Shown: piece by piece, positions 30,273-41,291 of the stretch | How the letters are laid out: each line of letters begins with the position of its first letter | How positions within the stretch are numbered: position 1 is the stretch's first letter | Assembly: GCA_029977705.1 (NCBI GenBank) | Contig: JAPOKJ010000014.1 | Location: 1-64,000, forward strand | DNA: 64,000 nt | DNA from: Burkholderiales bacterium | Lineage (GTDB): Bacteria; Pseudomonadota; Gammaproteobacteria; Burkholderiales; Burkholderiaceae_E | Direction of reading: 5' to 3' | Notes under the pieces: model-generated | What the model saw: only the letters and a program-made list of their open reading frames with translations | The model's database searches: none | Told to the model about the DNA's origin: nothing | Translations under genes and position numbers: made by a program

Positions 30273-32693
30273 TCAGCCGCAGCTGCCCAGATGCCCGCAG
30301 GAGGTGCAATAGTCGCAGCCGTCCTTGCGGATCATCGCGTGGGCCCCGCACTCGGGGCACTTCTTGCCCGCCATGACGCCGGCCACCGGCGCGGCCGCGA
30401 CGGGCGCTGCCAGGGCAACCGGTTCTGGCGCGGACTTGGCGCGCTGGGCAATGATGTTCTGGATGGCATAGGCCACAGCCGCCACTTCCGAGTCGTGCCA
30501 CATCGGTACCTGGGTGCCGTCGGCCTTGGTGTAGGTCCCCAGGCGCACCGGGCCGCGATCCCAGGCCACCTTGCGCATGTCGGACAGGGCACGCTCGAGA
30601 AAGCCCCCGCGTGCCGCCAGCGACAACAGCCGCATGCTCGAGGTGATCCACTGCTGCGACTCGCCGCTCTGGCCCACCGGCATGAAAAACTCAATGGCGC
30701 GCTCGATCGGCGCCGCACCGGCAGCCACCGGCATCGGCAGGAACGAGACCAGCAGGTACAAGGTCTTCTGGCCTTCCTGGGTCCAGTAGTCGACCTTCTC
30801 GGCCACTGCCGACAAGGCCCCTTTGGGACGGCTCTCGATCACCGTCTTCATCGGGTCCTGCACCGGGACCGCGGCCGGCGCGGGCTTGCTCTCGGTGCTG
30901 GTGGACAGCACCGATCCCAGGATGCTGTTGGGCCGGTAGGTGGCCAGCCCCTTCAGGCGCGAGCGCCAGGCCGCCTGATACAAACCCTTGAAGTCATCAT
31001 AGGGATAATCGGCCGGCACATTGACCGTCTTGGAGATGGCGGTATCGACGAAGGGCTGCACCGCCTCCATCATCGCGATATGGTCGCCCGCCGACATCTC
31101 GAGGGCGGACACAAAATACGGTGGCAGTTGTTCGACATCGCCGCCCAGTTCGCGATACAGGCGCCAGGCATGGTCCTCGACCGCGTACTCGCTGGTGCTG
31201 CCATCGGCCTCACGCTTCTTGCGGCGATACGTCCAGGAGAAGGCCGGCTCGATGCCGTTGGAGGCATTGTCGGCAAAGGCCAGGCTGACCGTGCCGGTGG
31301 GCGCGATCGAGAGCAGGTGGCTGTTGCGGATGCCATGGCTGCGGATCTGCTCGCGCAGGGCGGCCGGCAGGCGGCTGGCAAAGGTCCCCGGCGCCAGGTA
31401 GCCCTGGGCATCGAACATCGGGAAGGCGCCCTTGAGGCGGGCCAGCTCGACCGAGGCCGCATAGGCGGCATCGCGCATGCGCTCGGCGATGCGGGCGGCC
31501 ATCTCGCGCCCTTCCGCCTGGTCATAGCGCAGGCACAGCATGCTCAGCGTATTGCCCAGTCCGGTAAAGCCCAGCCCGATGCGACGCTTGGCGGCGGCCT
31601 CGGCACGCTGCTGCTCGAGCGGCCAGACGGTGACATCGAGCACGTTGTCCAGCATCCGCACCTGGATCGCGACAGACTTTTCGAAGGCCTCGAAATCGAA
31701 CGAGGGCACGCCACCGAAGCCGAAGGCATGGCGCACGAAGCGCGGCAGCACGATCGGCCCGAGGTCGCAGCAGCCGTAAGGGGGCAGGGGTTGCTCGCCG
31801 CAGGGATTGGTGGCGCTGATCCGCTCGCAATAGTTGAGATTGTTGTCTCGGTTGATCTGGTCCAGGAACAGGATCCCGGGCTCGGCGAAGTCATAGGTGG
31901 AACGCATCACCGTGTCCCACAGCTCGCGCGCCTTCAGGCTGCGATATACCCATTGGCCATCGGCGCGCTGACGGGCGCCCTTGGCGATGATCTCCGGGCC
32001 CGGCCGGGCCGGGTGCACCAGGTCCCAATCGGCATCATGGGCCAGGGCCTGCATGAACACATCGCTCACGCCCAGCGAGACATTGAAGTTGTTCCAGCGG
32101 CCCGGCGTGCGCTTGGCGGTGATGAACTCCATCACATCCGGATGATCGATGCGCAGCACGCCCATCTGGGCGCCGCGCCGCGAACCGGCGCTCTCGACCG
32201 TCGAACAGGACTGATCGAAGACATTGATGTAGCTGCAAGGCCCGGAGGCCAGAGAGGCCGTGGCCTTGACCTCGGCGCCACGCGGCCGGATGCGGGAAAA
32301 ATCGTAACCCACGCCACCGCCACGACGCATCGTCTCGGCGGCTTCGCGCAGGGCTTCATAGATGCCCGGATTGCCCTCGTCATCCACCCCCTGGATGCAG
32401 TCACCGACCGGCTGCACGAAGCAGTTGATCAGGGTGGCCTGGATGCCGGTGCCCGCCGCGCTCATGATGCGGCCGGCGCCGATCGCGCCATCGTGCAGGT
32501 TCTGCAGGAACAAGGCCTCGATGCGTTCACGGTCGGCCTCGGCCTCGACCGAAGCCAGGCTGCGGGCGACCCGTCGATAGAGGTCCTCGACGGTGCTTTC
32601 ACCGTCCTTGAGGTACTTTTCCCGAAGGACATCGAGACTGATGGTCTGGGCAGCCATCACCACCAGATTCTTGTTGGCAGGTTCGCGTTGCAT
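30273..32693 (-). CDS. nrdJ: Adenosylcobalamin-dependent (class II) ribonucleotide reductase
   Basis: An 806-residue enzyme that reduces ribonucleotides to deoxyribonucleotides using a B12-derived radical, with or without oxygen. Visible: the substrate-loop region [25 protein letters not shown], the active-site N-P-C-G-E-Q (Asn, Cys, Glu) and P-T-G-T-V-S in the second half. The C-terminus is a Cys-rich zinc-ribbon-like tail (C-P-E-C-G ... C-D-Y-C-T-S-C-G ... S-C-G) that shuttles reducing power. No ATP-cone is seen at the N-terminus. The start is M-Q-R-E-P (32693) or Met at 32657; neither has a clear ribosome-binding site. Upstream lies a structured leader with a terminator, so attenuation is likely. 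Confidence 0.94.
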
Positions 32694-33006: not shown

Positions 33007-33035
33007 TTGACCCGCATTGCCGGCCGGCCTATTGT
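33007..33035 (+). promoter_or_regulatory. Sigma-70-type promoter of the biotin-carrier operon
   Basis: TTGACC (33007-33012), exactly 17 bp spacer, TATTGT (33030-33035). The expected transcription start near 33042 leaves a leader of about 48 bases that contains the GntR-type palindrome and the AGGA ribosome-binding site. Confidence 0.7.
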
Positions 33036-33054: not shown

Positions 33055-33068
33055 AATTGTCAACAATT
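33055..33068. promoter_or_regulatory. GntR-type operator palindrome
   Basis: Perfect palindrome AATTGT-CA-ACAATT just downstream of the predicted transcription start and 21 bp before the biotin-carrier ATG. The TTGT-N2-ACAA core resembles FCD-type GntR sites, and the operon's second gene encodes such a regulator, so repression by blocking transcription is likely. Confidence 0.7.
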
Positions 33069-33089: not shown

Positions 33090-33302
33090 ATGAAAGAAGT
33101 GCGCTCCGAAGTGGCCGGCAATGTGTGGAAGATCACCTCCGCCGTCGGCGACACCGTCTCCGAGGGAGACACCCTGATCATCGTCGAGTCGATGAAGATG
33201 GAGATCCCGGTCGAGGCCACGCGCAGCGGCGTCATCAAGGAGATCCGTGTGGCCGAGGGCGAGGCCATCGCCGAGGGCCTGGTCGTGGCCGTGATCGGCT
33301 GA
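33090..33302 (+). CDS. Free-standing biotin carboxyl carrier domain protein
   Basis: A 70-residue protein that consists only of a biotinyl/lipoyl-attachment domain. The biotinylation site is the Lys in V-E-S-M-K-M-E-I-P-V, flanked by the usual G-D-T-V-S-E-G-D-T-L and G-V-I-K-E-I-R-V-A-E-G-E hairpins. It should carry carboxyl groups to the carboxyltransferase encoded three genes downstream. I chose the ATG at 33090 because AGGA lies 6 bp upstream and the residues before it are not conserved. First gene of an operon behind a good promoter. Most carriers of this size are fused to or adjacent to biotin carboxylase; here there is none. Confidence 0.93.
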   Translation: MKEVRSEVAGNVWKITSAVGDTVSEGDTLIIVESMKMEIPVEATRSGVIKEIRVAEGEAIAEGLVVAVIG

Positions 33303-33327
33303 AACCGGTCCGGCCACAGGATCCGCC

Positions 33328-34101
33328 ATGAAACTGCTCGAGGGCGACGAAAGCCTGTACAGCCAGCATGAGGGTGCGGTGGCCTTCCGCCTGTTTGCGG
33401 ACCGCCGTGAACCCACCCTCACCGTGCCCGAGCAGATCGCCGCCAGCATCGGCGAGCGCATCCTCGATGCAAGGCTGGCCCCGGGCGAGCGCATTCTCGA
33501 GCAGGAACTGGCCGACGAATTCAAGGTCAGCCGTGGTCCGGTTCGCGATGCCCTGCGCATCCTCGAGCGCGAGCAGCTGGTCACGATCCTGGCGCGGCGC
33601 GGCGCCATCGTCACCGGGCTGAGCGCGCAGGAAGTGCGCGAACTCTTCGAGATCCGCGGCGGACTGCACGAACTGGTCGCGCGACGCACCATTGCCCAGC
33701 GCAATCCGGAACTGCTGGCGGTCTACCGGGCCGGTGTCGCCCGGCTCGAGAAGCTGGCCCAGCTGCGGGATGACGGCGGCCGCTACGCCGAAACCACTTA
33801 CCGGCTGGTGCTGATCGCAGCCCGGATGTGTGGCAACGATCGCCTGTATCGCATGCTGTGCGCACTGTCCCTGCAGACGCTGCGCTACTCCAAGCTCGGC
33901 CTGGCCTCGCGCGAACGGCGCCAGAAATCAGTGCTGCTGTGGCAGCAAAGCTGCCGCGCCCTGGAGCGCGGCGAAGCCGAGCGCTACCTGCAGCTCACCC
34001 GTCAGCGCATCGCCGCCTCGGGCGAGGAAGCCATGCGCCTGATCGAGGCCGACCCGGGGCGCTACTGCCCGCCCCTCAAACCCAAGGGAAAACACGGATG
34101 A
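33328..34101 (+). CDS. GntR-family regulator (FCD-type)
   Basis: A 257-residue regulator. The winged helix is at about residues 35-95: P-E-Q-I-A-A-S-I-G-E-R-I-L-D, then L-A-D-E-F-K-V-S-R-G-P-V-R-D-A-L-R and the wing L-A-R-R-G-A-I-V. The C-terminal all-helical part fits an FCD-like ligand domain (A-Q-E-V-R-E-L-F-E-I-R). It is the second gene of the operon, 25 bp after the biotin carrier, and its stop overlaps the CoA-transferase start as ATGA. Likely an autoregulated local repressor that responds to the imported acid or its CoA ester. Confidence 0.9.
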   Translation: MKLLEGDESLYSQHEGAVAFRLFADRREPTLTVPEQIAASIGERILDARLAPGERILEQELADEFKVSRGPVRDALRILEREQLVTILARRGAIVTGLSAQEVRELFEIRGGLHELVARRTIAQRNPELLAVYRAGVARLEKLAQLRDDGGRYAETTYRLVLIAARMCGNDRLYRMLCALSLQTLRYSKLGLASRERRQKSVLLWQQSCRALERGEAERYLQLTRQRIAASGEEAMRLIEADPGRYCPPLKPKGKHG

Positions 34102-35312
34102 GCGGACCCCTGCAAGGCCTCCTGGTGCTCGAGTTGTGCAGCACCATCGCCGGGCCGGCCTGCGCGCGCCTGCTGGGCGACTTCGGCGCCGATGTCATCA
34201 AGATCGAACCGCCCGAGGGCGATGGCGTGCGCCAGATGGGTCGCCATGTCGGCGACATCTCGCTGTACGCCGCGACCATCCTGCGCAACAAGCGTTCGGT
34301 CACCCTCGACCTGAAGACGCCTGAAGGACGCGAGCTGGCCTTTGCACTGGCCAGCAAGGCCGATGTGCTGGTCGAGAACAACCGGCCCGGCGTGCTCGAG
34401 CGGCTGGGGTTGGGCTACGACGCCTTGTCCAAGGTCAATCCTGGCCTGGTCATGACGCGCATCAGCGGCTATGGCCAGAGCGGTCCCTACGCGGCGCGCC
34501 CCGGCTACGGGGCGATCTGCGAGGCGGTCGGCGGCGTGCGCCACATGACCGGCCATCCCGATCGCCCGCCCGATCGCGTGGCGCTGGCCACCACCGACTA
34601 CCTGACCTCGGTCTACGCCGCCTTCGGCACCCTGGCCGCCTTGCGCGAGCGCGAGCGCAGCGGCCTGGGCCAGGTGGTGGATGTGGCCCTGTACGAGGCC
34701 GCCTTTTCACAGATGGAGGCCTATGTGCCGGCCTATGACAAGCTGGGCATCGTTCCCAGCCGCGAGGGGCCCAACCTGCCATCGATGGCGCCCAACAGCC
34801 TGTATCCCACCCGTGATGGGGCCTGGGTACTGATCGCCGCCAACAGCAACCCCACCTTCCTGCGCCTGCTGCAGGTGATGGGCCGCACCGATCTGCTGCA
34901 GGACGAGCGCTTTGCCAGCATCCGCAGCCGGGGCGTCAAGGAAAACATGCGGGCGCTGGACGAGATCATCGCGCAGTGGACGCGCCAGTTCGATGCCACC
35001 GAGCTCGAGGAAAGGGTGCGCCAGGCCGAGGTGCCGACCTCGCGCGTCAACACCCTGACCGAGATCTTCCAGGATCCGCACTTTGCGGCCCGCGACATGA
35101 TCCGCGACGTGCCCCATGCCCAGTTGGGCAGCACCCGGCAGATCGGCATCGTGCCGCGCCTGTCGCGCACACCCGGCAGCATCCGCCACAGCGGCCCCGA
35201 TCTGGGTGCCAACACCGACACCGTCCTGGCCGAGCAGGCCGGGCTCAGTCCCGAGCGCCTCGCGCAATTGCGCCACCAGGGCGTCCTGGGCAAACCCACT
35301 GGAACCCCATGA
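34098..35312 (+). CDS. CaiB/BaiF-family (class III) CoA-transferase
   Basis: A 404-residue CoA-transferase. It begins with L-Q-G-L-L-V-L-E-L-C-S-T-I-A-G-P, then L-G-D-F-G-A-D-V-I-K-I-E-P-P-E-G-D, L-D-L-K-T-P-E-G and R-I-S-G-Y-G-Q-S-G-P-Y, all standard for class III. The catalytic Asp is probably in A-T-T-D-Y-L-T-S. It moves CoA from an acyl-CoA donor to a free carboxylate. Between a GntR regulator and a carboxyltransferase and coupled to both by ATGA overlaps, it likely activates the acid on which the carboxyltransferase acts. The true start at 34098 is set by the overlap; an open frame extends further upstream. Confidence 0.94.
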   Translation: MSGPLQGLLVLELCSTIAGPACARLLGDFGADVIKIEPPEGDGVRQMGRHVGDISLYAATILRNKRSVTLDLKTPEGRELAFALASKADVLVENNRPGVLERLGLGYDALSKVNPGLVMTRISGYGQSGPYAARPGYGAICEAVGGVRHMTGHPDRPPDRVALATTDYLTSVYAAFGTLAALRERERSGLGQVVDVALYEAAFSQMEAYVPAYDKLGIVPSREGPNLPSMAPNSLYPTRDGAWVLIAANSNPTFLRLLQVMGRTDLLQDERFASIRSRGVKENMRALDEIIAQWTRQFDATELEERVRQAEVPTSRVNTLTEIFQDPHFAARDMIRDVPHAQLGSTRQIGIVPRLSRTPGSIRHSGPDLGANTDTVLAEQAGLSPERLAQLRHQGVLGKPTGTP

Positions 35313-36892
35313 ACGCCGCCCTTCCCCCCGAAGCCAGCCCCAACCCCGACGACGGCGAATGGGCCCTCGAGCTGGCCGAGTTGCGCCTGCGCCGCCAGCA
35401 GGCCGCCGCCATGGGCGGACCCGAGGCACTCGCCCGACACAAGGCCTCGGGTCGCATGAACGTGCGCGAGCGCATCGACGCGCTGCTCGATGAGGGCACG
35501 TTTCGCGAAGTCGGCCGCATCACCGGCAAGGGCCATTACGACCAGGACGGCCACTTCAAGTCGCTCGATCCGGTCAATGCCATCATCGGCACCGGGCGCA
35601 TCGACCAGCGCAAGGTGGTGATCTCGGCCGATGACTTCACGCTGCGCGCCGGCTCGTCCGAGTCGACCATCTCCGACAAGTGGGTCTATGCCGAGCGCAT
35701 GGCCGAGCAATTGCGCCTGCCCCTGATCCGCCTGGTCGACACCGCCGGCGGCAGCGTCAAGCTGCTCGAGAAAAATGGCCACGCCAAGATCCCGGGCTAT
35801 CCCAACTGGCCGGTGGTCTCGCTGATGCGCAGCGTGCCGGTGGTTGGCATTGCGCTGGGCGCCTGTGCCGGCCTGGGCGCGATGAAGGTGCTGGCCTCGC
35901 ATTTTTCAGTGATGGTGCGCGACCAGGCGCAGGTGTTTGCCGCCGGCCCGCCGGTGGTCAAGCAGGCCTATGGCATCACCATCGACAAGAACGACCTGGG
36001 CGGCTCGGATGTACATCGGCGCAATGCCCTGGTGCACAACGAGGCGGTGGACGAGCAGGACGCCTTTGCCCAGGCGCGGCGCTTCCTGTCCTACCTGCCG
36101 CGCAATGCCTGGCGCCTGCCCGAGCGGGGCGAGACGGGCGATGCCCCCGATCGCGCCGACGACTGGCTCAAGAACGCCATCCCGCGCGACCGGCGCAAGG
36201 TCTATGACCCGCGCAAGATCATCGCCAGCATCTTCGACCAGGGCTCGGTGTTCGAGATCGGCCGCTGGCAGGGCGGCGCCATCATCACGGCGCTGGCGCG
36301 CCTGAACGGCTGGCCGGTCGGTGTGCTGTGCAGCGACCCCAAGATTTCCGGTGGCGCCATGACCCTGAACGCCGCCTGGAAGATGGAGCGCCATGTGCAG
36401 CTGTGCCATCAATTCGGCCTGCCGGTGATCAACCTGGTGGACCAACCCGGCAATGCCACCGGTCCCGAGGCCGAGCTGGCCGGCACGCTGCTCGGTGCCC
36501 TGCGCGTGCTGATGACCATCGAGGAGGCCCGAGTGCCCTGGGTGTCGATCATCATGCGGCGCGCTTTCGGCCTGGCCGGCGGCCTGCATGCGCCCAAGCA
36601 CTTTCCGTCCCTGAACCTGCGCTTTGCCTGGCCCAGCGCCCGCTGGGGCTCCATTCCCGTGGAAGGCGGCGTTGCAGCCGCCTATCGCAAGGAAATTGCC
36701 GCCGCCGAATCGCCAGCCGACAAGCAGGCCGAACTGGAGGCCTATTACAACCGGCTGGGCTCGCCTTTCCGGACGGCCGAGCATTTCAGCGTGCTCGACA
36801 TCATCGATCCGCGCGAGACCCGCGCCCTGCTGTGCGACTGGATCGAGGATGCGCGCGAGTTGCTGGAAACCGACCGGGCGCAGCGCACATGA
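35309..36892 (+). CDS. Acyl-CoA carboxyltransferase subunit (PccB/MccB type)
   Basis: A 527-residue protein with both crotonase-like halves of a biotin-dependent carboxyltransferase. N-terminal: A-R-H-K-A-S-G-R-M-N-V-R-E-R-I-D-A-L-L-D-E-G-type opening and L-V-D-T-A-G-G-S; the centre has G-A-C-A-G-L-G-A and later G-G-S-D-V-H; the C-terminal half has N-L-V-D-Q-P-G and G-G-L-H-A-P-K-H. Acyl-CoA carboxylases of this family use it to carboxylate propionyl-, methylcrotonyl- or geranyl-CoA. The oxyanion glycines are present, so it should be active. Its start overlaps the CoA-transferase stop as ATGA, and its stop overlaps the Bug gene as ATGA. The missing partner is a biotin carboxylase. Confidence 0.93.
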   Translation: MNAALPPEASPNPDDGEWALELAELRLRRQQAAAMGGPEALARHKASGRMNVRERIDALLDEGTFREVGRITGKGHYDQDGHFKSLDPVNAIIGTGRIDQRKVVISADDFTLRAGSSESTISDKWVYAERMAEQLRLPLIRLVDTAGGSVKLLEKNGHAKIPGYPNWPVVSLMRSVPVVGIALGACAGLGAMKVLASHFSVMVRDQAQVFAAGPPVVKQAYGITIDKNDLGGSDVHRRNALVHNEAVDEQDAFAQARRFLSYLPRNAWRLPERGETGDAPDRADDWLKNAIPRDRRKVYDPRKIIASIFDQGSVFEIGRWQGGAIITALARLNGWPVGVLCSDPKISGGAMTLNAAWKMERHVQLCHQFGLPVINLVDQPGNATGPEAELAGTLLGALRVLMTIEEARVPWVSIIMRRAFGLAGGLHAPKHFPSLNLRFAWPSARWGSIPVEGGVAAAYRKEIAAAESPADKQAELEAYYNRLGSPFRTAEHFSVLDIIDPRETRALLCDWIEDARELLETDRAQRT

Positions 36893-37899
36893 ACCTCAGC
36901 CCGGTCCGCTCACTCATGACCCGCCGCCACTTGCTGGCCGCCGCCGCAGGCCTGGCGCTGGCCCCGGCCGCCCGGGCCCAGCCCGGCTGGAAGCCGAACC
37001 GCAACATCGAGTACATCGTGCCGGCCGGCCCGGGTGCGGCGCTCGACGGCGCGGCCCGCCAGATGAAGGAGATCCTCGAGCGCCGCCAGTGGATCGGCAG
37101 CAACCTGCTGGTCACCAACCGCCCGGGCGGCTCGGGCACGATCGCCATCAACACGCTGCTGCAACACAATGGTGACGGCCATTACCTGACCACCTACACC
37201 CATTCCATGCTCAACCATGCCCTGATCGGGGAGGCCAGCGTCAGCTGGCGCGACCTGACCCCGATCGCGGTGCTGTTCGAGGAGGCGATGGTGGTGGCGG
37301 TGCGTACCGAGGCCGAGATCGGCGATGCGCGCGATCTGGTCGCACGCCTGAAGAAAAATCCCGGCGCCTACCCGATCGGCGTGGCCACCTCGGTGGGCAA
37401 TCACATCCATGCCGCGATCGCCCTGCCCCTGAAGGCGGCCGGCGTGGACGTCAGCAAGCTGACCGTGGTGCCCTTCAAGTCCTCGGCCGAATCGATGACG
37501 GCCCTGCTGGGGGGACATATCGCGATCGTTTCGGCCTCGGCGCCGAATGTCGTCACCCCTCTGGGCGGGGGCCGCATCCGCGTGCTGGCGACCGCCGCCG
37601 CCCAACGCCTGGGCGGGCCCCTGGCGGCGATCCCGACCTGGCGCGAGCTCGGCGTGCCCGCCAGCTACACCTCGGTGCAAGGGGTGCTGGGCCCGAAGGG
37701 GCTGAGCCCCGAGCAGATCGGCTTTTGGGAGGGTGCCCTGCGGCAACTCAACGACAGCCCGGAGTGGCAGCAATTCCTGGTGCGCCAGCACTGGCGTGGC
37801 AACTTCATGGGCTCGGCGGAGATGGCGCGCTTTCTTGGTGCAGAGTCCCAGGCCGCGCGCGGACTGCTGGAAAGCCTGGGCCTGCTCAAGCCGCGCTGA
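36889..37899 (+). CDS. Bug/TctC-family solute-binding receptor
   Basis: A 336-residue periplasmic receptor, divergent from the other two in this window. Signal peptide: M-T-R-R-H-L-L-A-A-A-A-G-L-A-L-A ending R-A-Q-P. Mature opening I-E-Y-I-V-P-A-G-P-G-A-A-L-D and later N-R-P-G-G-S-G-T-I-A-I-N. The R-R-H-L-L stretch resembles a weak Tat motif. It is translationally coupled (ATGA) to the carboxyltransferase, so it probably captures the substrate of this pathway. No TctA/TctB membrane genes are in the operon. Confidence 0.9.
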   Translation: MNLSPVRSLMTRRHLLAAAAGLALAPAARAQPGWKPNRNIEYIVPAGPGAALDGAARQMKEILERRQWIGSNLLVTNRPGGSGTIAINTLLQHNGDGHYLTTYTHSMLNHALIGEASVSWRDLTPIAVLFEEAMVVAVRTEAEIGDARDLVARLKKNPGAYPIGVATSVGNHIHAAIALPLKAAGVDVSKLTVVPFKSSAESMTALLGGHIAIVSASAPNVVTPLGGGRIRVLATAAAQRLGGPLAAIPTWRELGVPASYTSVQGVLGPKGLSPEQIGFWEGALRQLNDSPEWQQFLVRQHWRGNFMGSAEMARFLGAESQAARGLLESLGLLKPR

Positions 37900-37995: not shown

Positions 37996-39381
37996 TTGAG
38001 ACATTCCGTCAAGCGATCGCTGATCGCCGCGGCTGTGGCCGCCTGTTCCCTCGCCGGCTTCACCGCCCCTGCCAGTGCGCAGGAAAAGCTCGTCGTCTGG
38101 TTCACCAAGGGCTTCTATCCCGCCGAGGATGCCGCCCTGAACACGATGATCTACCGCTATGAGCAAAAGACCGGCGTCAAGGTCGAACTCTCGCTCTACG
38201 CGACCCAGGACATCATTCCCAAGACCGTCGCCGCGCTCGATTCCAAATCGCCGCCCGACGTGTCCTTCGGCGTGACCTATGACTTCCAGACCGCCGGCAA
38301 GTGGGCCAGCGAGGGCAAGCTGCAGAACCTGGACAGCATCGCCACCAAGATCAAGGACCGCATCACGGCCGACACCCTGGCCACCGCCAACCTGATCGGC
38401 CCGGACGGCAAGAAGGCGCATTACGCGCTGCCGGTGTACCGCCAAACCATCCACGTCAATTACTGGAAGGACATGCTGGCCGAGGCCGGCTTCAAGGACA
38501 GCGATATCCCCAAGGGCTGGAACGAGTACTGGAACTTCTGGTGCGACAAGGTCCAGCCGGCCTATCGCCAGAAGACCGGCAAGCGCATGTTTGCGATCGG
38601 CCATCCGATGGGCGTCGACTCCACCGACTCGTTCTACAGCTTCCACCAGTTCATGCTGGCCTACAACGTGAAGCTGGTCGATGACAGCGGCAAGGTGCTG
38701 GTCGACGACCCCAAGAACAAGGCTGGCCTGGCCAACTCGCTGCGCGACTACTCGGCGATCTACACCAAGGGCTGCACCCCGCCCTCCTCGACCAGCTGGA
38801 AGGATCCCGACAACAACGTCGCCTTCCACAACCGCACCACCATCATGACCCACAACGCGACCATCTCGGTGGCGGCCAAGTGGCTCGATGACGCCAACAA
38901 TGCCTCGCTCAAGCCCGAGGAGCGCGCCGCCGGCAAGAAGGCCTACGAGGAGCAGATCGCCACCACCCCGTGGCCGAACAAGCCCGACGGCAAGCCGATG
39001 AACTACCTGCAGGCGGTCAAGCTGGTGGTGGCCTTCAAGGGCGCCAAGAACGAGGCCCGGGCCCGCCACTTCCTCGAATTCATGATGGAAGACGCCAACC
39101 TGATCCCGTACACCGAAGGCTCGCTGGGCCGCTGGTATCCGGTCAGCAAGGCAGGCATGGACCGCGACTTCTGGAAGGCTGATCCGCATCGCCGTTCGGT
39201 GGATACCCAGTTCCGCGCCGGCACCTCGGTGTTCCCCTTCGTCTACAACTGGCGCTTCACCAGCCTGAACAACGAGAACGTCTGGGCCAAGGGTGTGAGC
39301 CGCATCGTCAACGACAAGTGGACGCCGGAGAAGGCAGCCGACGAGCTGGTGGCACGTATCAAGGAAGTGGCGGCCAAGTAA
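37996..39381 (+). CDS. Sugar-type ABC transporter solute-binding protein
   Basis: A 461-residue extracellular binding protein of family 1. Signal peptide S-V-K-R-S-L-I-A-A-A-V-A-A-C-S-L ending A-P-A-S-A-Q; mature opening E-K-L-V-V-W-F-T-K-G-F-Y-P, then the N-Y-W-K-D-M-L-A-E-A-G-F segment typical of sugar-binding proteins. The start is TTG; GGAGAAG 5 bp upstream decides it, and no ATG is placed to serve instead. It heads a three-gene operon with two permeases. Ligand unknown: a sugar, sugar acid or polyol. Confidence 0.91.
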   Translation: MRHSVKRSLIAAAVAACSLAGFTAPASAQEKLVVWFTKGFYPAEDAALNTMIYRYEQKTGVKVELSLYATQDIIPKTVAALDSKSPPDVSFGVTYDFQTAGKWASEGKLQNLDSIATKIKDRITADTLATANLIGPDGKKAHYALPVYRQTIHVNYWKDMLAEAGFKDSDIPKGWNEYWNFWCDKVQPAYRQKTGKRMFAIGHPMGVDSTDSFYSFHQFMLAYNVKLVDDSGKVLVDDPKNKAGLANSLRDYSAIYTKGCTPPSSTSWKDPDNNVAFHNRTTIMTHNATISVAAKWLDDANNASLKPEERAAGKKAYEEQIATTPWPNKPDGKPMNYLQAVKLVVAFKGAKNEARARHFLEFMMEDANLIPYTEGSLGRWYPVSKAGMDRDFWKADPHRRSVDTQFRAGTSVFPFVYNWRFTSLNNENVWAKGVSRIVNDKWTPEKAADELVARIKEVAAK

Positions 39382-39443
39382 GGCTGCTGCACGCCTGAGC
39401 TGAACGTGACCTTGACGCAAGCCATGCCACGGGTGCGCAGCGC

Positions 39444-40361
39444 ATGAGCGCCGCCACCCTGGAAGCGGCAAAGGCGCCGGCTGCCCCTGCGCAGCCCGGC
39501 GCCGCCAGCGCACGCAGCGGACCCTATCGGCCAGCCTCCTGGAACCGGGTGGGCTGGCTGATGGTCACGCCCTATCTGCTGGTGTTCGCGCTGTTCGTGG
39601 TCTATCCGGTCACCTACGGCTTCTTCCTGGCCCGCCACCCCGAGAGCTACGTCAAGCTGTGGGCCGACCCGATCTTCGCGAACGCGGTCATCAACTCGGT
39701 GCTGTTCCTGCTGGTGGTGGTGAACCTCAAGTTCATCATCGCGCTTTTCCTGTCCGGCTTCTTCACCCACGAAAAGCGCTGGATCCGATGGGTCTCGCTG
39801 CTCTTCATCCTGCCCTGGGCCGTGCCCTCGATCCCCACCATCCTGTCCTTCCGCTTCATGCTCAATCCGGAGTGGGGGATCATCAATTCGATCATCTTCA
39901 AGCTCACCGGTGCGGACGGCCCGAACTGGCTGAATGACCGCTGGATCGCCTTCTCGATGGCCGGCCTGGTCCACATCTGGAAGTCGCTGCCCTTCTGGAC
40001 CCTGATCCTGTTGACCGGTCGCCTGGCCATCTCCAAGGACCTGTATGAGGCCGCATCGGTCGACGGCGCCACGCGCTGGCAGCAGTTCGTGCATATCACC
40101 TGGCCCTCGATCGCCAGCCTGTACCTGACCTGCACCATCCTGTCCATGATCTGGACCCTGGGAGACTTCAACTCCGTCTACCTGCTCACCGGCGGCGGCC
40201 CCTCTGACCTGACCCATGTGCTGGCCACGCTGGGCATCCGCTACCTGCGCCTGGACCAGGTCGACATGGCGATGGCCACCATCGTCGTGGCCATGCCCCT
40301 GATCCTGCCGCTGGTCTACTTCATGATGAAGCGCCTGTCCAAGGCACCGGACGAAACCTGA
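39444..40361 (+). CDS. Sugar-type ABC permease (MalF/UgpA-like)
   Basis: A 305-residue inner-membrane permease with about six helices. The binding-protein-dependent transport signature (E-A-A-S-V-D-G-A-T-R-W-Q-Q-F) is intact. The N-terminal 30 residues are an Ala/Pro-rich cytoplasmic extension. The start at 39444 has no strong Shine-Dalgarno. It should form the channel with the next gene product. Confidence 0.92.
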   Translation: MSAATLEAAKAPAAPAQPGAASARSGPYRPASWNRVGWLMVTPYLLVFALFVVYPVTYGFFLARHPESYVKLWADPIFANAVINSVLFLLVVVNLKFIIALFLSGFFTHEKRWIRWVSLLFILPWAVPSIPTILSFRFMLNPEWGIINSIIFKLTGADGPNWLNDRWIAFSMAGLVHIWKSLPFWTLILLTGRLAISKDLYEAASVDGATRWQQFVHITWPSIASLYLTCTILSMIWTLGDFNSVYLLTGGGPSDLTHVLATLGIRYLRLDQVDMAMATIVVAMPLILPLVYFMMKRLSKAPDET

Positions 40362-40421
40362 ACCCATGAACCCGACCATGCACCAGGCAAGAATCCAGCC
40401 GCTGCCGTGCCAGGACCGCTC

Positions 40422-41291
40422 ATGAGCAGCGCAGCTTCTGCAAAGCCTTTCAACTGGCGCGGGCTGCGCGAAGAGGCCGGGCTGTGGCTGATCGCGATTC
40501 CGGTGCTGCTGTGGACGCTGATCCCGATCTACCACATGCTGCTGTTCGCAATCTCCAAGAAGGACAGCGCCTTTGCCGGCAAGCTGTGGCCCGATGAGCC
40601 GACGCTGCGCAACTTCGGCCTGGTGTTCCGCGAACAGCACCACTACCTGAACCACTTCTGGAGCCAGCTGGGCAGCTCGGTGCTGATCGCCTTCATGACC
40701 GGCCTGCTCACCCTGGCCATTGCCACCGGCACGGCCTTTGCCATCAGCCGCCTGAAGCTTCGTGGCGGGCGCTGGATCATGAACTTTGCCCTGTTCACCT
40801 ATTTCATTCCGGCCGCCTTCCTGGCCGTGCCGATGTACAAGGCGATGGGCATGTACGGGCTGCTCAACAGCCGCGCCGCGATGATCCTGGCCATGGTCAC
40901 CCTGGCCTCGCCCTATGCCATCTGGGTGCTCAAGCAGGCCTCGGACCGCCTGCCAGCGGAACTCGACGAAGCGGCCATCATGGACGGGGCCAGTGCCTGG
41001 CAACTGTTCCGCCTGGTCTACCTGCCGCTGATGGTGCCCAGCCTGGTGGCAATCGGCACCTATGCCGTGCTGCTGGCCTGGAACGAGTACCTGTACGCCT
41101 TCCTGCTCATGTCCAACGAGAAGGAAGTGACCCTGTCGGTGGCGCTGGGCCTGTTCATGGCGGCCGACGACTCGCCCTGGGAACTGCTGATGACCACCGG
41201 CTTCCTGTATGCGCTGCCGCCCGCGGCGATCTACTACGCCTTCAAGAAGTACATGGTCTCGGGCCTGACGGCGGGCGCCGTCAAGAGCTAG
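40422..41291 (+). CDS. Sugar-type ABC permease (MalG/UgpE-like)
   Basis: A 289-residue permease with six helices and the E-A-A-I-M-D-G-A-S-A-W-Q-L-F coupling motif. I chose ATG at 40422, preceded by AGGA. Its TAG stop is the first three bases of the left arm of the palindromic element at 41289. No ATP-binding subunit follows; a shared MalK/MsmK-type ATPase must be encoded elsewhere if the importer works. Confidence 0.92.
   Translation: MSSAASAKPFNWRGLREEAGLWLIAIPVLLWTLIPIYHMLLFAISKKDSAFAGKLWPDEPTLRNFGLVFREQHHYLNHFWSQLGSSVLIAFMTGLLTLAIATGTAFAISRLKLRGGRWIMNFALFTYFIPAAFLAVPMYKAMGMYGLLNSRAAMILAMVTLASPYAIWVLKQASDRLPAELDEAAIMDGASAWQLFRLVYLPLMVPSLVAIGTYAVLLAWNEYLYAFLLMSNEKEVTLSVALGLFMAADDSPWELLMTTGFLYALPPAAIYYAFKKYMVSGLTAGAVKS

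Follow-up and report, generated by a model that had tools for sequence, protein, structure and literature searches.

The stretch of DNA analyzed here (64,000 nucleotides, positions 1 to 64,000 of contig JAPOKJ010000014.1 of the Burkholderiales bacterium assembly GCA_029977705.1; hereafter the window) carries a five-gene operon for a free biotin carrier, a regulator, a coenzyme A (CoA) transferase, a biotin-dependent carboxyltransferase, and a periplasmic receptor, without a gene for a biotin carboxylase (BC). On balance, we consider it probable that this is a self-regulated operon for the catabolism of a single carboxylic acid, in which the missing BC step would be carried out by the shared housekeeping AccC.

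The operon and the biotin carboxylases of its host

The operon comprises the following genes:

33090-33302, + strand: free biotin carrier of 70 residues (Biotin_lipoyl, 62.7 bits; cut-off 22.1)
33328-34101, + strand: GntR family regulator with FCD domain, the probable local regulator (GntR 61.4 bits, FCD 46.5 bits)
34098-35312, + strand: class III CoA-transferase (CaiB/BaiF, formyl-CoA transferase type; PF02515, 415.7 bits)
35309-36892, + strand: full-length biotin-dependent carboxyltransferase of the subfamily CT1 (PF01039, 262 bits)
36889-37899, + strand: TctC/Bug-type periplasmic solute receptor (PF03401, 95.6 bits)

These profile matches place all five genes where a first-pass annotation of the sequence had put them, and the regulator, CoA-transferase, carboxyltransferase, and receptor genes are indeed coupled by ATGA junctions at 34098, 35309, and 36889, with 25 bp separating the carrier gene from that of the regulator. 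The carrier displays VESMKMEIP around Lys36, the predicted biotinylation site (codon 33195-33197), and ESMKMEIP recurs in all 11 operon carriers that were aligned. Its nearest solved chain is 1z6h, a free biotin/lipoyl attachment protein of similar length (about 70 residues), which we take to be from B. subtilis and the operon of which, unlike that of the window, presumably includes its own BC. The carboxyltransferase covers positions 2-472 of the 493 of PF01039, and hence both its N and C halves are present. It belongs to the same family as the PCC/MmdA-type acyl-CoA carboxylases (1x0u, 6ybp), which share both halves and a carrier with the MKM lysine; in contrast to these, the window carrier is free rather than fused, and no neighboring BC was found. 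A carboxyltransferase with both halves and a carrier with the lysine motif are two of the features that characterize a multi-subunit acyl-CoA carboxylase, the activity of which is predicted here from sequence. The absence of a BC from the operon, already stated in the first-pass annotation, extends to the whole window (no tblastn match to six BC queries at E ≤ 1e-15 over at least 150 residues) and to its contig C133 (no match in a genome-wide PF02785 search).

In the host genome (G000; 4.3 Mb in 143 contigs, 96 % complete), the same PF02785 search detected six BC genes. AccC is free-standing and located on contig C137 directly beside accB, four others are fused in the same reading frame to a carrier domain of their own and cluster with their own carboxyltransferase (immediately neighboring in C60 and C92, separated by a single gene in C64 and C118), and the sixth is a pyruvate carboxylase (above the NCBIfam cut-off). 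Among the host BC genes found, AccC alone lacks a fused carrier, and by elimination it is the most plausible partner of the operon. A precedent for one BC subunit serving several carboxyltransferases is provided by mycobacterial AccA3, which is reported to serve AccD4 and AccD5, while its pull-down with AccD6 was non-reciprocal (PMC4347857). In AccA3, the carrier domain resides in the BC chain (alpha3 chain 30hu, carrier match at residues 534-597), whereas the carrier of the window is a separate gene of the operon, and sharing would be limited to the BC. It is also conceivable that the carrier is charged by a fused alpha subunit belonging to a different carboxylase, or that such a subunit pairs directly with the carboxyltransferase, given that the host genome encodes four BC-carrier fusions; however, each of these clusters with its own carboxyltransferase and has its own carrier domain, which would render the free 70-residue carrier redundant, so that we regard this scenario as improbable.

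BC genes were also counted in 25 further genomes. Together with the host, 19 genomes carry a BC-less locus; the G-numbered genomes are mostly drafts, and BC absences are therefore provisional. Ten of the 19 (the host, G057, G080, G081, G084, G085, G086, G087, G092, and G093) resolve to AccC alone, as in each of them a single BC is without an in-frame carrier domain, and this one is a neighbor of accB.

Two further carboxyltransferases of the host likewise have no detected local BC, and AccC sharing may thus be general in this organism. One is encoded by what seems to be a single carrier-carboxyltransferase fusion gene running off two contig ends (L070:3-515 on C58 and L068:3-1745 on C1); the proteins are nearly identical in their overlap, the DNA ends show no exact overlap, and no BC was detected beside it. 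The other is a 46 % identical paralogue on contig C25 (L067:6083-9252), about 10 bp in front of a gene for galactarate dehydratase (above the NCBIfam cut-off), with neither BC nor carrier detected nearby.

Biotin carboxylase linkage among relatives and the direction of the reaction

Related loci were gathered by a pattern-seeded scan of genome contigs, which returned 40 loci, and by a survey of 74 genomes from the family of the host (the host among them), 29 of which had a match at E ≤ 1e-100; these include a side group with 43-49 % identity, to which the C25 paralogue belongs. Membership in CT1 was defined by the motif that residues 186-191 form in the window protein, and the subfamily comprises 51 rows including the window, or 50 after duplicate removal. 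Within 8 kb of these 50 carboxyltransferase genes, a BC was found in 16 and a carrier in 39 cases. Among the 34 well-flanked rows (at least 6 kb before and at least 5 kb after the gene, window included, some being near copies or from a shared genome), a carrier was found in 29, a BC in 14 (L027, L028, L030, L032, L033, L050, L054, L055, L056, L057, L058, L059, L063, and L064), and a carrier without a BC in 16. In addition, a BC lies by the CT1 module on an annotated Variovorax plasmid. The most instructive relative is Hydrogenophaga sp. 2FB (L028, 74 % identical), in which the order carrier, GntR, CoA-transferase, carboxyltransferase, and TctC is that of the window and is followed by a BC, a 589-residue protein with BC domains in which no carrier domain was detected. 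In Zeimonas arvi (L027, 75 %), a BC lies on the opposite strand at a distance of 1.9 kb, and the fetched stretches of Bordetella genomosp. 2 (L029) and Rubrivivax albus (L049) contain none.

Linkage to a BC in close relatives, the observation by which the first-pass annotation proposed to judge its own idea, is accordingly mixed rather than conserved. On a quick IQ-TREE phylogeny of 54 rows (SH-aLRT support only; the long-branch row L062 was left out), 34 rows were scored, a set different from the 34 well-flanked rows, with 16 assigned as BC (including L117), 18 as none, and 15 left unscored owing to short flanks or ambiguity. BC linkage requires 10 changes on this tree, 9 of these being forced by well-supported branches, and the five-row set that contains the window (support 98) is itself divided into two rows with and three without a BC. 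Shuffling of the BC labels gave means of 13.4 and 12.7 changes, with values as low as observed in 12/500 (for no BC) and 42/500 (for BC) shuffles, respectively.

The frequent linkage of BC genes to the same module, together with the lack of an OAD_beta-type membrane subunit (no PF03977 match in the host genome), points to ATP-driven carboxylation as the direction of the reaction. The first-pass annotation had offered either sharing of AccC or operation as a transcarboxylase or decarboxylase; of these, the former is favored by AccC being unfused and by the BC-bearing versions of the module in relatives such as L028, whereas a decarboxylase is disfavored by the missing OAD_beta. For the same reason, a sodium-pumping biotin decarboxylase was considered and found unsupported. 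In the transcarboxylase or decarboxylase scenario, a dicarboxylate imported via TctC would be converted into a CoA ester, from which the carboxyltransferase would move CO2 to the carrier, and the resulting carboxybiotin would pass its carboxyl group to another carboxyltransferase, to AccC running in reverse, or to water. No local BC would then be expected, and TctC receptors often bind dicarboxylates. Moreover, in L111, L112, and L118, CT1 is close to a carrier and to a second paralogue (CT2), and no BC is in the vicinity. CT2 occurs in eight rows in seven CT1 loci, each near CT1:

L111:6935-8467, CT2
L112:3055-4635, CT2
L117:9155-10699, CT2
L118:11885-13420, CT2
L076:6581-8119, CT2
L076:19089-20609, CT2
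L056:6255-7787, CT2
L064:7215-8747, CT2

The best support for transcarboxylation comes from L111 and L112, which belong to two genomes of the host's family (G024 and G025) and show no BC in the fetched stretch. Here, the operator core ATTGTYRACAAT (see the following section) is located just upstream of CT2 (L111:6868 and L112:3036, about 55 and about 8 nt before the called start), and the facing operon of carrier, regulator, CoA-transferase, and CT1 has the looser form TTGTNNACAA. With operator-like sites on both units, CT2 and the CT1 operon are probably co-regulated in these loci, as judged from sequence, and the pairing is a possible two-carboxyltransferase transcarboxylation system. For the window operon, however, we consider this scenario unlikely. 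The operon contains no CT2 and, unlike the Propionibacterium-type transcarboxylase (12S/5S/1.3S), no second carboxyltransferase of the 5S type (Pfam scan of its five genes and of the one that follows; no search for a free 5S-type protein elsewhere in the genome was made). A BC, as found in 14 of the 34 well-flanked rows, would be needless for a pure transcarboxylase, the carrier would be needless for a biotin-independent decarboxylase, and no OAD_beta subunit of a membrane-bound decarboxylase was found in this genome.

Another scenario is that the operon is a decaying, non-functional remnant of a complete carboxylase after loss of its BC, as the comparison with L028, which has the same order plus a BC, might suggest. 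This appears highly improbable, as all five reading frames are open and four are ATGA-coupled, the biotin motif and the family motifs are kept, the operator-like site consists of a perfect repeat, and a carrier without a BC is found in nearly half of the well-flanked rows (16/34, the window among them).

Sharing of AccC thus remains our preferred explanation, and several observations weigh against it. The partnership is arrived at by elimination, from sequence, with a fused alpha subunit acting in trans as the alternative, and in an assembly of 143 contigs at 96 % completeness a further BC could sit in a gap. The carrier shares 32 % identity with host AccB. Furthermore, the module-linked BCs of relatives are not duplicates of AccC: those best matched by host AccC score 370-472 bits and the remainder have a fused alpha subunit as their better match (up to 652 bits), compared with mostly 700-890 bits for accB-linked AccCs. 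Given this dissimilarity, AccC may be a poor substitute for a module-linked BC. The BC label is weakly clustered on the tree, and exchange of whole operons, besides loss, may therefore be at work. Finally, four of the 19 genomes with a BC-less locus (G068, G076, G078, and G082) have further free-standing BCs, mostly beside another carrier or carboxyltransferase (L135 stands alone in the 7 kb fetched), and five (G024, G025, G064, G083, and G088) are unassignable owing to contig ends, incompleteness, or ambiguous frames.

The predicted operator and the proposed mechanism

An inverted repeat in front of the carrier gene is new in this analysis. The elements upstream of the operon are:

33055-33068, no strand: perfect inverted repeat AATTGTCAACAATT (arms of 6, spacer of 2), the proposed operator of the GntR/FCD regulator
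33007-33035, + strand: weak sigma-70-like promoter match (9 of 12; 1 found versus 0.4 expected in shuffles, near chance)

The repeat sits 21 nt before the carrier start codon. This exact copy of AATTGTCAACAATT is the sole match in the window at up to 2 mismatches, where 0.33 would be expected, and 30 of 100 shuffles of the window had at least one such looser match. GntR homologues directly follow the carrier in many relatives, and in all 22 regulator-bearing loci inspected (hand-picked for a GntR homologue and upstream DNA) TTGTNNACAA occurs in the 250 bp that precede the carrier or regulator gene, in L041 overlapping the called start; the stricter ATTGTYRACAAT is present at the same place in 20 of the 22. 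Six further loci with GntR hits were excluded, three being cut by contig ends (L035, L044, and L048) and three having weaker hits (L114, 127 bits; L117, 124 bits; L052, 44 bits), of which L114 and L052 have TTGTNNACAA and L117 has none. The core ATTGTYRACAAT occurs once in the entire host genome (backwards control: 0), which suggests that the predicted regulon is local, confined to one operon in the host. The operon is accordingly of the type in which an operator-like palindrome is conserved upstream of a GntR/FCD-regulated unit, binding being predicted, and it is probably self-regulated by its GntR/FCD protein.

Among 19 relatives searched, 18 contain ATTGTYRACAAT, with no hit for the backwards control in any of the 19. 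The sole exception is the Zeimonas genome, in which the closer carboxyltransferase operon has no called GntR homologue beside it and a second operon has a weak one (L117). The relatives also show 15 ATTGTYRACAAT sites outside carboxyltransferase loci, in 13 regions for which a similarity search gave no BC, carrier, or carboxyltransferase. Several of these sites (L149:4116, L152:1774, L153:7588, L154:5225, and L157:5280) lie beside weak GntR matches (40-59 bits), and related regulators may thus share the operator core.

Taken together, the following sequence of events can be proposed. The acid would be captured by the TctC receptor and presumably receives CoA from the class III CoA-transferase; the donor may be succinyl-CoA, a guess based on the closest families. 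The acyl-CoA would then be carboxylated by the carboxyltransferase, as its family suggests, with carboxybiotin on the dedicated 70-residue carrier, the biotin of which would be carboxylated in an ATP-dependent manner by AccC of acetyl-CoA carboxylase acting in trans. The GntR/FCD protein would bind the inverted repeat at 33055-33068 and, judging from the single site, control only this operon. If so, the genes of the operon together with housekeeping functions should suffice to use the acid, and the carboxylated product should be usable by ordinary cell metabolism.

Substrate leads and significance of the CT1 subfamily

The suggestion that the operon is an uncharacterized catabolic module for a carboxylic acid fits its gene content and context, whereas a substrate was not found. 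CT1 is wide-spread in Burkholderiales and reaches the Bacillaceae; no described function or assigned substrate was found for it. An annotated plasmid record names the CT1 protein only “carboxyl transferase domain-containing protein”, and a literature search by listings, in which most subscription journals are not covered, gave nothing recognized as describing this module among the matches listed. The carboxyltransferase of the window scores 241 bits with the nearest solved chain and 276.8 bits with the methylmalonyl-CoA decarboxylase subunit alpha model (TIGR01117, MmdA), below its cut-off of 998.8. Typical CT1 motifs are C[AV]G[LQ]GA and RR[AC]FG[MLV][AG]G, and Gly184, Gly188, Gly190, Ala191, Arg418, Gly421, and Gly424 are invariant in the 50 rows (188, 190, and 191 by definition). 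Gly425 of the window protein aligns to Asp407 of PCC chain 6ybp (Ile in 6ybq); the position is Gly in 28, Ala in 19, Ser in 2, and Gln in 1 of the CT1 rows, and the acyl pocket may thus differ from those of propionyl- and acetyl-CoA carboxylases.

The CoA-transferase of the window has its closest families among succinate-glutarate and mesaconate enzymes and scores far below both cut-offs (best NCBIfam model succinate--glutarate CoA-transferase, NF052585, 247.3 bits versus a cut-off of 750). No single substrate can be read from gene neighbors, because the activating gene beside the carboxyltransferase differs among loci. Most rows have a class III CoA-transferase in this place; the others include an AMP-binding protein in L049 (by Pfam), L050, and L052 (both by similarity), an ATP-grasp_2 (SucC-like) protein in L030 (by Pfam), and a two-subunit CoA-transferase on a Diaphorobacter plasmid from the side group. 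At L030:7864-9965, the ATP-grasp_2 gene and a SucD-like next gene (no library check) replace the usual CoA-transferase. A related cluster of TctC, CoA-transferase, carrier, 46 % identical carboxyltransferase, and BC is also found on plasmid pMTS3 of Cupriavidus sp. P-10 (L078:7395-19906), where two GntR genes and then bioA, bioF, bioD, and bioB come after it. In the window, the operon is preceded by a gene on the opposite strand (30273-32693) and followed after 96 bp by three genes on the same strand (37996-41291), one for a solute-binding protein (SBP_bac_8) and two that appear ABC-permease-like on inspection of the sequence, without library check; no ATPase gene was noticed between them.

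A lead comes from one 14-row clade, in eight loci of which (L034, L035, L036, L038, L039, L040, L042, and L051) the carboxyltransferase is directly followed by PF03601, a putative sulfate/sulfite exporter (identified by Pfam for L034, L038, and L051 and by similarity to the Zeimonas protein for the others). Within this clade, L043 has a short PF03601 match in this position, L041, L045, and L048 have none, and L044 and L047 end at the carboxyltransferase. The second Zeimonas operon reads GntR, carboxyltransferase, TctC, CoA-transferase, MaoC/FAS1_DH-like protein, PF03601, molybdopterin oxidoreductase with Mo-co dimerization domain, cytochrome c, and BC; its PF03601, sulfite-oxidase-like molybdoenzyme, cytochrome c, and BC genes were noted at L027:13443-19973 (minus strand). 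The PF03601 and sulfite-oxidase-like molybdoenzyme genes hint at organosulfur acids in some relatives. Known systems for 3-sulfinopropionate and thiodipropionate catabolism likewise combine a class III CoA-transferase and TctC receptors, as in the window, with a putative sulfate exporter (PMC8102459, PMC6370202, PMC5373536), to which the PF03601 exporter-type gene of some CT1 relatives corresponds. A word search of the main texts gave neither “biotin” nor “carboxyltransferase” in PMC6370202 and neither “biotin” nor “carboxylase” in PMC5373536 and PMC8102459. In contrast to these systems, no PF03601 gene is present near the operon or elsewhere in the window, and the single PF03601 match of the host lies on another contig. 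Sulfur is therefore to be taken as a lead for the subfamily and not as a claim on the window operon.

With more doubt than confidence, we put forward that CT1 represents an undescribed route of acid catabolism, with a one-operon regulon, activation by a class III CoA-transferase, and conversion into a central metabolite by a free-carrier carboxyltransferase that is charged by AccC. For several relatives, an organosulfur compound would be the acid, as suggested by the PF03601 exporter gene in the operon and, in Zeimonas, by the sulfite-oxidase-like pair and the BC. No pathway described so far is known to us in which organosulfur acids undergo biotin-dependent carboxylation.

The operator motif offers a direct handle for finding the inducer, and native pairs with and without a BC, such as L028 and the window, make subunit sharing testable. 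If true, the operon would be a defined case of a catabolic carboxylase that depends on AccC, an essential enzyme of fatty acid synthesis, in a family in which linkage to a dedicated BC has changed about ten times.

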